From: Halorubrum ruber
GTDB lineage: Archaea > Halobacteriota > Halobacteria > Halobacteriales > Haloferacaceae
DNA length: 64,000 nucleotides
Assembly (NCBI RefSeq): GCF_018228765.1
Contig: NZ_CP073695.1
Span: 1,054,001 to 1,118,000 of the forward strand
Direction of reading: 5' to 3'
In this document: piece after piece, positions 29,599 through 33,449 of the stretch
Layout: each line of letters begins with the position of its first letter
Position numbering within the stretch: the stretch's first letter is position 1
The notes under the pieces: model-generated
What the model saw: the letters and a program-made list of their open reading frames with translations, nothing else
Told to the model about the DNA's origin: nothing
Database searches by the model: none
Program-made: the position numbers and the translations under genes

Positions 29599-31077
29599 TC
29601 AGTCGTCGGCGTCGGCGGGGGGCGTCGCGGTCGCGTCGCCGCGGCTTCCCTCGCCGGAGGAGCGCTCTGAGAGCAATGGCGTCCCGTCGGCGCGCGGGCC
29701 CAGCCGGGGGCCGTGCGGGCCGTCATCGGGGTCGATCCGGCGCCGCTTGCGGTAGTCGGTCGAGCGCTCGACGGGCGTCCGCCCGATCGCCGTGATCATC
29801 TCGACGTAGTCGCCGAACGAGCGGTACTCGCCGTACTCGCCGCCCGCGCGGCTGGTGATCTCCTCCGAGAGGATGGTGCCCATGAAGTCGTCGGCGCCGC
29901 AGTTGAGCAGCTTGAGCCCGTGGGCGTCGCCCGACTTCACCCACGAGGCCTGGACGTGGTCGACGTTGTCCAAGAAGAGCCGCGCGACCGCGACTACGAG
30001 TTCGTCCTCGTCGCGCGAGGGGCCGGAGTCGACGACGCCGCGGCGGTACAGCGGGGTGTTCTGGTGGATGAAGGAGAGCGGGACGAACTCCGTGATCGCG
30101 CCCGTGCGGTCCTGGAGGTCGCGGATCACCTTCAGGTGTTTGGCCCTGTGGGCGACCGTCTCGACGTGGCCGTACATCATCGTCGAGGTGACATCGAGGC
30201 CCGCGGCGGCCGCGCCCTCCATCGCCGCCACCCAGTCGTCGGTGCGGATCTTCCCCGGGCAGATCACGTCGCGGACCTCGTCGACGAGAATCTCGGCGGC
30301 GGTGCCCGGCGCGGAGTCGAGCCCGGCCTCGGCAAGCTCGCGGTAGACGGCCTCGTACTCCCAGTCGGTGCCGCGTTTGGCGTGGTACGCCTCCTCCGGC
30401 GTCATCGAGTGGAGGTGGACGCCGCCGACCGACATCGCGTCCATCTGCTCGACGTACGTGCCCGGGTCGGTCGCGTACGCCTCCGGCGGCTTGTAGTTCA
30501 CCTCGCTCGCGGGGTCGTCGTGGGCCGCGAGGATCTCGTGGTGTTCCTCGTTCAGCGCGAACGCTGGGTGGAGCCCCGAGACGGAGCAGACCTCGTAAAT
30601 TCCCATATCGAGGGCGTCTTCGACGACCGCGCGCGACTCGGCCGGGGTCTTGGTGAAGCCGGCGTGCTCGACGTCGCTGTCGGCCTCGAACGCGTGCGCG
30701 GAGTCCTTGAAGTTACAGAACAGGCAGCCCGTGTTGCAGGCCGTGGTGACGTTGTTGTTCAGGTTGGCGACGAAGGTGACCTCGTCTCCGACCTCCTCGG
30801 CCCTGCGCCGGTCCGCGGCCTCTAACACCGCCTCCTTGCGGACCGAGTCGATCCCCGCGCGCTCCGTGCCGGTGGCGAGCAGTTCGGTCGCGTCGTCGAC
30901 CGTCAGCCGGGCGCCGTCGCGGGCCTTCGCGAGCGCGTTCTCGAACGACTGGTCGGTCGCGGGCGCCGCGAAGTCGAACTCGTTCGCGCCGCCCCCGCTG
31001 TCGCCGTTCCCGCCGCCGTTCGATCCGTCCGCGCCGGAACTCCCCCCGAACTCATCCCCTAACGCTCCCGGTTCCAC
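29599..31077 (-). CDS. cofH: CofH subunit of FO synthase (radical SAM)
   Basis: A 492-residue protein. The radical-SAM motif CNTGCLFC (Cys114, Cys118, Cys121) is the CxxxCxxC that binds the [4Fe-4S] cluster. Later blocks VCSVSGLHPAFAL, GGVHLHSMTPEEAYHAKRGTDWEYEA and PVERSTDYRKRR are typical of CofH. With CofG it joins tyrosine and the pyrimidine ribityl-amine to make 7,8-didemethyl-8-hydroxy-5-deazariboflavin, the core of F420. The N-terminal 40 residues (Gly/Asn/Ser) and C-terminal 45 residues are extra and probably disordered. Start is GTG. cofG is not in the window. Confidence 0.92.
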   Translation of the reverse strand: MEPGALGDEFGGSSGADGSNGGGNGDSGGGANEFDFAAPATDQSFENALAKARDGARLTVDDATELLATGTERAGIDSVRKEAVLEAADRRRAEEVGDEVTFVANLNNNVTTACNTGCLFCNFKDSAHAFEADSDVEHAGFTKTPAESRAVVEDALDMGIYEVCSVSGLHPAFALNEEHHEILAAHDDPASEVNYKPPEAYATDPGTYVEQMDAMSVGGVHLHSMTPEEAYHAKRGTDWEYEAVYRELAEAGLDSAPGTAAEILVDEVRDVICPGKIRTDDWVAAMEGAAAAGLDVTSTMMYGHVETVAHRAKHLKVIRDLQDRTGAITEFVPLSFIHQNTPLYRRGVVDSGPSRDEDELVVAVARLFLDNVDHVQASWVKSGDAHGLKLLNCGADDFMGTILSEEITSRAGGEYGEYRSFGDYVEMITAIGRTPVERSTDYRKRRRIDPDDGPHGPRLGPRADGTPLLSERSSGEGSRGDATATPPADADD

Positions 31078-31221: not shown

Positions 31222-31238
31222 TCAGTTGTGAATTAGTT

Positions 31239-32130
31239 GGCTCTGTTGAAACCCTATTCTTCAAATATAAATTGGGATGAAAAACCCGGTCGCTGAATGG
31301 TGCGAATGTACCGCTGATATTTCTACCAAGTTGCGTTGATATTCATAACGGCGTGCTGAATACAAGGCGCATATGTAACAGAATTTGAACTACGCTGACA
31401 AGATTTGTCTGAAGAAAGTTTATTTATGTACACCGTCCGTTGGCTTAGAAACAGTATGGTAGATATATTATCTATCATATTATCTGTGATTGCAATTTTA
31501 CTATCATTGATCGCTATACGTCGTCAAAATCTGCCTTCTCAATATCAGCTAGAGCGACGTATACGCGAACGATTTGCTGAGAAATCATCTGATATGAAGA
31601 TTAAACAGGGTCCAATTCGGTATGATATCGAATCAATAGATGTCTGTATTAGCGAGAAGTGGACGAACACCTTCAGAAAATATTCACGAGGGAACGTATA
31701 TGGAAAATCAAAAATATCAATCGTAGTAAATGGAATCCTTGTTAAAAAGTCCGAGTCCGGTGACAGAGAAGTAAGGTTAGTTGATGACTGCTCAATGTTG
31801 AAGATCCCAAGTGAATCAGCAGAAATTACAAATATAGAGAACAGAAATCCATTTGCGATCGAGATTACGGTAAATTCCGTTGATTCAGAATTCGTGTTTG
31901 ATAAAGTTGCTGACATACTTAGAACCGAGCTTCCTCAATATGTCGAACCGAATGACAACGTAGCGTATGGATGACCTGCCCCAAGTGAAGTGTGATAAAT
32001 TCACATTCTGTATCTTACACGGCGTTTCTACTAGACTTCTGAAAGTAGCCAATGGGCGCGGTATATGAGTACGCTGTACTGACCACACCCCGGTCAGAAT
32101 ATATCACTTCCTAAGGATTTCAACAGGGCC
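31239..32130. mobile_element. 892-bp AT-rich insertion with IS6-like inverted ends and 8-bp target duplication
   Basis: The left end reads GGCTCTGTTGAAACCCT and the right end, reverse-complemented, GGCCCTGTTGAAATCCT: 15 of 17 bases match. Immediately outside are AATTAGTT (31231-31238) and AATTAGGT (32131-32138), matching 7 of 8, as expected for a target-site duplication of IS6-family length. The interior is far more AT-rich than its surroundings and holds one ORF (31456-31974) but no transposase. It therefore looks like a mobile insertion cassette moved by a transposase from elsewhere. The parts are seen; mobility is inferred. IS6-like naming rests on remembered end sequences. Confidence 0.75.
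31456..31974 (+). CDS. Passenger gene of the insertion: membrane-anchored protein of unknown function
   Basis: A 172-residue protein in AT-rich codons. One N-terminal membrane helix (MVDILSIILSVIAILLSLIAI) is followed by a basic stretch and a soluble, beta-strand-rich domain (VCISEKWTNTFRKYSR, KISIVVNGILVKKSESG, IENRNPFAIEITVNSV). Unlike its neighbours it is not strongly acidic. The start at 31456 lies 30 nt below a TTTATTTA box at 31419; starts at 31426 (ATG) or 31405 (TTG) are possible but fall in or before that box. I do not recognise the family. It is the only coding content of the insertion, so it is the candidate cargo. Confidence 0.7.
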   Translation: MVDILSIILSVIAILLSLIAIRRQNLPSQYQLERRIRERFAEKSSDMKIKQGPIRYDIESIDVCISEKWTNTFRKYSRGNVYGKSKISIVVNGILVKKSESGDREVRLVDDCSMLKIPSESAEITNIENRNPFAIEITVNSVDSEFVFDKVADILRTELPQYVEPNDNVAYG

Positions 32131-32225
32131 AATTAGGTATAAACGAACCGCTGAACCCCCCCGCGTGACATCTCCGAACCGGCACCGCCTCGAAACGGCC
32201 GGCTGCCGACCCCGCGGTCGTCGCC

Positions 32226-33449
32226 TCAGTACTGGTAGTTGATGACCTGCTCGTCCTCTTTGTCCGCGTCCTGAAGCTTGTCGCGGGCCTGCTCGAAGTC
32301 CGCCTGCGAGACCTCGGTACGGCCGTCGCGGATGGCGAACATCCCGGCCTCGGTCGCCAGCGAGGCGATGTCGGCGCCGCTGTACCCGTCGAGGTCGCGG
32401 GCGACGGCGCTGAGGTCGACGCCGTCAGCGACGTTCATCTCCTCGGTGTGGATCTCCAGGATGCGCTCGCGGCCGTCCGGGCCGGGCTCGGGCACCTCGA
32501 TGAGGCGGTCGAACCGACCGGGGCGTAAGATTGCCTCGTCGAGCATGTCGAAGCGGTTGGTCGCGGCCATGATCCGGACCTCGCCGCGGTCGTCGAAGCC
32601 GTCCATCTCGGAGAGCAGCTGCATCATCGTCCGCTGGACCTCGGCGTCGCCCGAGGTCTTCGAGTCCGTGCGCTTCGAGGCGACGGCGTCGATCTCGTCG
32701 ATGAAGATGACGGCGGGCTCGCGCTCGGCGGCGAGCTCGAACAGGTCGCGGACGAGCCGCGCGCCCTCGCCGATGAACTTCCGGACGAGCTCCGAGCCGG
32801 CCATCTTGATGAACGTCGCGTCCGACTCGTTGGCGACGGCCTTCGCGAGCATCGTCTTTCCGGTGCCCGGCGGGCCGTGGAGCAGGACGCCGCTCGGCGG
32901 CTCGACGCCGACCGTCTCGAACTGCTCGGGGTTCTCGAGGGGGTCCTCGACGGCCTCGCGGACCTCCCGGATCTGGTCGTCGATGCCGCCGATGTCGGCG
33001 TACTCGACGTCCGGCGACTCGGTGACCTCCATCGCCTGCGCCCGGGAGTCGGTCTCGTCGTCGAGCACCTGCTGGACCGCGAAGGAGTCGTTGATCGCGA
33101 CGCGGTCGCCGGGGCGGAGGTCCTCGTCGAGCCGCGAGGCGGCCTGCGTGAGCACCTCCTGGTTGTTGCCGTGCTGTTTGATGACGACGCCGTCGTCGGT
33201 GATCTCCTCGACCGACGCGATGTACAGCGAGGAGGTCTTCAGCACCTCGTTCTCGCGTTTCAGCTGCTCGACGTCGTCTTTCAGCTCGCCGCGGCGCCCC
33301 TCGGCGTCCGCGAGCCGGTCTTCCAGTTCCTCGTTCACCTGAACGATCCGCCGGTAGTGCTGGCGGATCGCCTCCAGCCGCTCCGCGTCGCTCATCTCGG
33401 GGTCGAGCTCCAACCGCGGGCGGTCGGGCAGTGAGGGGCTGTGAGACAT
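32226..33449 (-). CDS. pan: Proteasome-activating nucleotidase (PAN)
   Basis: A 407-residue AAA+ ATPase: an N-terminal coiled coil (about 20-75, QVNEELEDRLADAEGRRGEL), an OB domain (about 78-135), then the AAA module with GPPGTGKT (Walker A), IIFIDEID-type Walker B (VIFIDEIDAVASKR), an arginine finger (LRPGRFDRLIEV) and a C-terminal four-helix part. PAN hexamers unfold substrates and thread them into the 20S proteasome. The C-terminus ends NYQY, with Tyr at positions -1 and -3 rather than penultimate, so the usual HbYX docking motif is not matched exactly. Single gene, start MSHSPSLPDRP. Confidence 0.94.
   Translation of the reverse strand: MSHSPSLPDRPRLELDPEMSDAERLEAIRQHYRRIVQVNEELEDRLADAEGRRGELKDDVEQLKRENEVLKTSSLYIASVEEITDDGVVIKQHGNNQEVLTQAASRLDEDLRPGDRVAINDSFAVQQVLDDETDSRAQAMEVTESPDVEYADIGGIDDQIREVREAVEDPLENPEQFETVGVEPPSGVLLHGPPGTGKTMLAKAVANESDATFIKMAGSELVRKFIGEGARLVRDLFELAAEREPAVIFIDEIDAVASKRTDSKTSGDAEVQRTMMQLLSEMDGFDDRGEVRIMAATNRFDMLDEAILRPGRFDRLIEVPEPGPDGRERILEIHTEEMNVADGVDLSAVARDLDGYSGADIASLATEAGMFAIRDGRTEVSQADFEQARDKLQDADKEDEQVINYQY

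Follow-up and report, generated by a model that had tools for sequence, protein, structure and literature searches.

Insertion sequences (ISs) with a modular layout have been described in the Bacillus cereus group, where IS231 elements of the IS4 family carry a variable passenger between the left end and the transposase and are accompanied by cassettes, known as MIC231. At the time of that account, no other IS family had shown such modularity (PMC2266710). Passengers are also known from transporter ISs (tISs), which are IS copies that carry genes unrelated to transposition (PMC3129680). In haloarchaea, an ISH2-type MITE of Haloquadratum and Halobacterium is transposase-free and contains a short, non-transposase open reading frame (ORF) that is expressed (PMC3119063). 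A small surface/transmembrane protein, Hlac_3088 of Halorubrum lacusprofundi, has been described as the passenger of a haloarchaeal transposon (PMC10544981), and resembles the cargo of the element analysed here in type. Lastly, the records of ISHla2 (Halorubrum lacusprofundi) and ISHxa2 (Halopiger xanaduensis) contain hypothetical genes directly after the transposase, and these ISs share their transposase type and right-hand block with the family described below.

An insertion between two genes

The window, which is the whole 64-kb stretch of Halorubrum DNA that was analysed, contains an 892-bp insertion at 31239–32130. Its terminal inverted repeats, GGCTCTGTTGAAACCCT (31239–31255) and GGCCCTGTTGAAATCCT (32114–32130, reverse complemented), are identical at 15 of 17 positions. 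They are bordered by octamers that represent the left and right target-site duplication (TSD), AATTAGTT (31231–31238) and AATTAGGT (32131–32138), which agree at 7 of 8 positions. GC content, measured in 300-bp windows, is 35–41% inside the element versus approximately 70% in its flanks. The first-pass annotation had proposed a mobile insertion cassette, with transposon ends and a target duplication around a passenger but no transposase. It had also pointed to the matching ends and octamers and to an AT-rich island holding a membrane-anchored protein gene, all of which were located as claimed.

Within the element, the left end (LE) is a 65-bp block on the plus strand (31239–31303), and the same block is found in ISs and cassettes. 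The right end (RE) is a 58-bp block of the cassette type on the minus strand (32073–32130), recognised by nhmmer (63 bits) and by alignment. The outer 17 bp of each block form the terminal inverted repeat. A boundary motif, GTGGTCAGTACAG, lies on the minus strand at 32074–32086. The longest plausible gene of the interior encodes a 172-aa protein on the plus strand (31456–31974; alternative starts at 31405, TTG, and 31426, ATG), with a predicted N-terminal membrane helix. A possible TATA-like element for this gene, TTTATTTAT, can be read on the plus strand at 31419–31427, about 30 nt before the ATG at 31456. The insertion is intergenic, lying upstream of a minus-strand gene that starts at 31077 and downstream of a gene that ends at 32226. 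Judging from their sequences, we take these neighbours to be a cofactor-F420-type gene and a PAN-type ATPase gene, respectively. A search of Rfam gave no match.

The repeat pattern alone is weak evidence for an insertion. When inverted repeats matching at 15 or more of 17 positions, TSDs matching at 7 or more of 8, and a spacing of 300–2000 bp were required, the window contained exactly one match. Three such matches in total turned up in a set of five order-1 Markov sequences, each 64 kb long, so the pattern is only mildly unusual. The insertion is nevertheless considered real on two grounds: homologous blocks of 58–65 bp corresponding to both ends are present in many copies elsewhere in the genome, and an empty site exists in a genome of the same genus (G010). 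There, the flanks are contiguous (TGTGAATTACTCATAAACG) and a single octamer, AATTACTC, is present, as opposed to the filled arrangement TGTGAATTAGTT[892 bp]AATTAGGTATAAACG of the window. G010 is the sole informative relative in this respect, since in other relatives that have both flank genes these stand apart, for example by 12.5 kb in G048. The region was not seen as ancestral sequence in any of the relatives compared, and the element contains no remnant of a decayed IS. Thus the proposed cassette, the precise empty site expected of it, and the absence of the two conditions that would have spoken against it are all borne out.

Shared ends and a parent insertion sequence

In the single 3.02-Mb contig that carries the element, many places share only the outer blocks of the cassette, and 15 copies with paired LE and RE passed the filter. 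At each such place, a 65-bp LE and an approximately 58-bp RE are about 0.3–1.15 kb apart. Across 84,980 genomes, exact matching of the LE detected 76 loci, which belong to Halorubrum and to 12 further genera of haloarchaea: Halorussus, Halopenitus, Natrinema, Haloplanus, Halohasta, Haloterrigena, Haloferax, Halonotius, Halobellus, Halostagnicola, Natronorubrum, and Natronoglomus. The first-pass annotation had anticipated transposase-free pairs of these ends 0.7–1.5 kb apart, together with an IS that shares them. Such pairs indeed occur at dozens of haloarchaeal loci, with spacings of 0.28–1.15 kb, and the IS is of the ISHla2/ISHxa2 type. Pairing of LEs and REs resolved 92 elements with 62 interior clusters. 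The exact pattern of cassette ends was absent from the viral contigs searched, and RNAalifold gave no compensatory change in support of conserved hairpins in the ends.

One interior cluster has 12 members of approximately 580–830 bp, ten of them in this genome, which are GC-rich and apparently non-coding. The window LE is 95–97% identical over 63–67 bp to that of three 650-bp copies in the same genome. Such GC-rich, apparently non-coding copies of about 590–660 bp with the same ends (L039, L043, L046, L050–L054, and L058) have an interior segment whose orientation with respect to the ends can be either way round, which looks like the outcome of inversion through recombining internal repeats. 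With their short, apparently non-coding interiors, the GC-rich 650-bp copies of this genome fit the description of a MITE. The window element does not, as its interior holds a gene that has relatives elsewhere. At four loci (L140, L171, L173, and L215), several cassettes are clustered within a few kb, and some of these share an end or have two tandem LEs 90–150 bp apart. At another (L091 350–1849, G008:C62), an ORF, which we presume to be erythromycin-esterase-like, lies just inside an LE, and a matching RE was not found in the stretch examined.

The parent of the family is an IS5-family IS of the ISHla2/ISHxa2 type, these being the names given to it in plasmid records. Complete elements of 1.2–2.0 kb between paired ends encode a 273-aa IS5-family transposase (NF033579, 216 bits against a cut-off of 140), and several copies have perfect 8/8 TSDs and differing cargo. 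A duplication of 8 bp is, we assume, suggestive of the ISH1 subgroup of IS5. The order of the complete IS is RE, transposase, a variable passenger gene, and the 65-bp LE. In the plasmid records, the block from RE through transposase is conserved over approximately 888 bp and is followed by unrelated DNA up to the LE. The same IS occupies the same site in G039 and in Halorubrum sp. GN11_10-6_MGM (L147). A search of this genome for IS1595 (PF12762) as a potential parent was empty.

ISs and cassettes also share a boundary motif of 12 bp, CGGTCA(A/G)TACAG, which has a background of 0.32 per kb in interiors. It directly follows the transposase stop in 11 of 15 IS copies, and lies 44–47 bp from the right terminus in 65 of the 74 transposase-less cassettes. 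Cargo begins at this motif in both forms, and conservation has sharp edges. Because the motif follows the stop in the IS and lies within the RE in cassettes, the latter look like ISs from which the transposase has been cleanly removed, perhaps in a single ancestral deletion or else through repeated exchange. Further, the same Tat-lipoprotein is carried as cargo with a transposase (L148) and without (L185). Cassette L185 (1–643) and IS L148 (1–589) are 79.6% identical, and the similarity on the IS side ends a single base short of the stop codon of the transposase.

Cassettes have evidently been mobile. TSDs matching at 7 or more of 8 positions flank 34 of the 74 cassettes and 7 of the 18 ISs, compared with 45 of 20,000 mismatched pairs; perfect TSDs flank 25 cassettes and 7 ISs. 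A single transposase-less cassette was found at two sites in two species (L212 and L147), with interiors 98.0% identical and TSDs that are different but both perfect (AGTCTACT and TGTTGGGT). This indicates that cassettes move as a unit without a transposase of their own. At L040 (605–1625; genome 426.9–427.9 kb), a cassette of 462 bp that carries a zinc-ribbon-like ORF and has the TSD TTGCGATC interrupts a transposase gene of the IS6 type.

The window element has the terminal inverted repeats of an IS (in the 65-bp LE and the outer RE), a TSD of the 8-bp class, a passenger in place of a transposase, and an empty counterpart, and an IS5-type DDE transposase is encoded between the same ends elsewhere. 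It is therefore most probably a mobile insertion cassette, that is, a non-autonomous derivative of an ISHla2/ISHxa2-type IS5 element (probability about 0.88). An autonomous copy, either resident or plasmid-borne, would supply IS5 transposase in trans, which would recognise LE and RE, move the cassette, and generate the 8-bp duplication. The transposase may later have been lost from this genome. The cognate gene is present in 47 of 52 genomes of the genus but was not found in the window's genome at any score, a meaningful result since the same query matched those 47. Because its cognate transposase is not detectable there, the window cassette looks like a stranded former passenger, and mobilisation of this copy in trans would be historical at best.

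Cargo proteins and a possible link to defence

The passenger stretch contains a different ORF in nearly every IS copy, most often one for a small membrane protein, and cassettes too nearly all differ from one another in cargo. Across the family, a transmembrane stretch is predicted in 45 of 62 cargos. The corresponding figures are 90 of 652 in windows from the flanks and 6 of 31 for small genes annotated on plasmids. These counts used the longest ORF per interior, chosen without preference for membrane proteins, and a simple hydropathy measure. Cargo is therefore strongly enriched in membrane proteins, with an effect size that should be read as approximate. Only about 8 of the 62 cargos match Pfam, among them Mrr, HNH, DUF5615/PIN, HalOD1, and, weakly, HEPN. 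In one IS (L236 1449–3056), the passenger region has a small ORF followed by one for a DUF5615/PIN toxin-like protein, and the two are possibly a toxin–antitoxin pair. A weak-ended element (L101 2096–3526) carries a protein with HEAT repeats and an Mrr restriction-endonuclease domain.

The 172-aa protein of the window cassette matches none of the families of Pfam, NCBIfam, PADLOC or PHROGs. No close homologue was found in 170 genomes of its taxonomic family, and searches of viral contigs, phages and plasmids did not recover the cargo either. A profile search of 391 genomes recovered remote relatives in eight others, of which seven are full-length anchored proteins and the eighth (L266) is doubtful. 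None of the relatives checked is surrounded by cassette ends. A single-sequence AlphaFold model of the cargo has a mean pLDDT of 44. A search of solved structures returned weak, unrelated matches only.

The neighbourhoods of some relatives give a hint of a link to defence, but no more than this. One lies in an AT-rich dip, with a C5-methyltransferase gene on one side and the gene of a type II restriction enzyme on the other (L264 166–3360, G008:C62), a second adjoins an Eco57I-like methyltransferase (L265), and a third has HepT-like and type IIG pieces in its vicinity (L261). They lend indirect support to the suggestion, made in the first-pass annotation, of a defence, toxin or fitness gene. 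The cargo could be a membrane-anchored accessory of restriction–modification or anti-virus systems, with the IS acting as an anti-virus shuttle, a proposal that is compatible with the element being a mobile insertion cassette. Mrr, HNH nucleases, PIN/DUF5615 toxin-like and HEPN-like proteins among the other cargos are in keeping with this, as is the role in virus exclusion proposed for the surface protein carried by a haloarchaeal transposon (PMC10544981). However, the relatives are very remote (15–24% identity), the majority of cargos are small, anonymous membrane proteins without a defence match, and the window cassette has housekeeping genes on both sides. A defence role is possible but rather unlikely. 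In more general terms, the product of the cargo may be a small, membrane-anchored protein working at the envelope or alongside restriction systems, and such genes might be kept or spread by virtue of being occasionally useful.

A segment at L254 (1478–2013, G039:C134) is 95.7% identical to the interior of the cassette at L256. It lacks both LE and RE, and similarity stops close to where each of these would border the interior. It is a possible donor site, or a possible case of cargo exchange.

Alternative origins and comparison with known systems

A rather unlikely proposal on the origin of the cassettes is that they form a self-contained lineage moved by an unsampled IS5 sister with a cassette-type RE, and not by ISHla2-type copies. 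The 58-bp cassette RE matches the IS RE over approximately 35 bp only; beyond this point the two types differ (nhmmer 50–68 versus 22–31 bits), and given this difference the true helper could be such a sister IS. Set against this, the LE and the outer 17–20 bp of the RE are the same in both forms, the boundary motif is shared, and one cargo has been found in both.

Alternatively, the element might be a decayed autonomous transposon, its ORF being a leftover or a chance frame. This would suit an element that is single-copy in its genome and has mismatches in both its TSD and its terminal repeats. Nevertheless, the element has no similarity to transposases, 65 of the 74 cassettes have a clean deletion at the same point, and the ORF has remote full-length relatives that are free-standing genes in other haloarchaea, so that decay is highly improbable. 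Membership of the IS6 family, with an archaeal IS6 transposase as helper, was suggested by the 8-bp TSD, by window ends that we take to resemble those of IS6100/IS240 (GGCTCTGTTGCAAA), and by an IS6-type transposase (PF13610, DDE_Tnp_IS240) inside one family copy (L096), but it is refuted, since IS6 loci of the genus (L109–L138) do not have these ends in the right positions, L096 is an IS6 element nested in a 650-bp copy, and the transposase gene that does lie between these ends, flanked by 8/8 TSDs, is of the IS5 family.

As a mobile insertion cassette, the element has its closest parallel in IS231/MIC231, with constant ends, a variable passenger beside the transposase, and transposase-less cassettes, movement in trans being a feature of the IS231 system. 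That system is bacterial, belongs to the IS4 family, and has TSDs of 10–12 bp, whereas the elements described here are archaeal, belong to IS5, duplicate 8 bp, and carry mostly tiny membrane cargo. The window element differs from ISHla2 and ISHxa2 in having no transposase, and the records of these ISs annotate the transposase alone, not the ends, cassettes or swapping of cargo. The ISH2-type MITE has one conserved ORF in about 520 bp, in contrast to the unrelated cargos found here within one set of ends. Similarly, the passenger of a tIS is usually fixed for each IS, while in this IS5 family it changes from copy to copy.

The layout of terminal inverted repeats, TSD and DDE transposase points away from an integron gene cassette. 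There may still be a likeness in role, if the space between the 12-bp motif and the 65-bp LE is a cargo bay whose contents are actively exchanged. The family would then constitute a haloarchaeal gene-cassette system, maintaining a mobile repertoire of small proteins for envelope and defence, shared throughout the Halobacteria, in a role comparable to that of integron cassettes, a suggestion that is tentative and on present odds doubtful.

Two ends and one motif now provide a searchable carrier for dozens of orphan small haloarchaeal membrane proteins, which normally escape annotation, and both the route of gene capture and the excess of membrane proteins become testable. No account of a cargo-swapping IS that is archaeal or belongs to the IS5 family was found in the open-access literature. 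Within the searchable literature, this would be the first clear modular IS in archaea and in the IS5 family, with cargo that varies per copy and many transposase-free cassettes. Mobile insertion cassettes and passenger-bearing ISs are already known; what appears to be new is an archaeal population of IS5 elements that swap their cargo.
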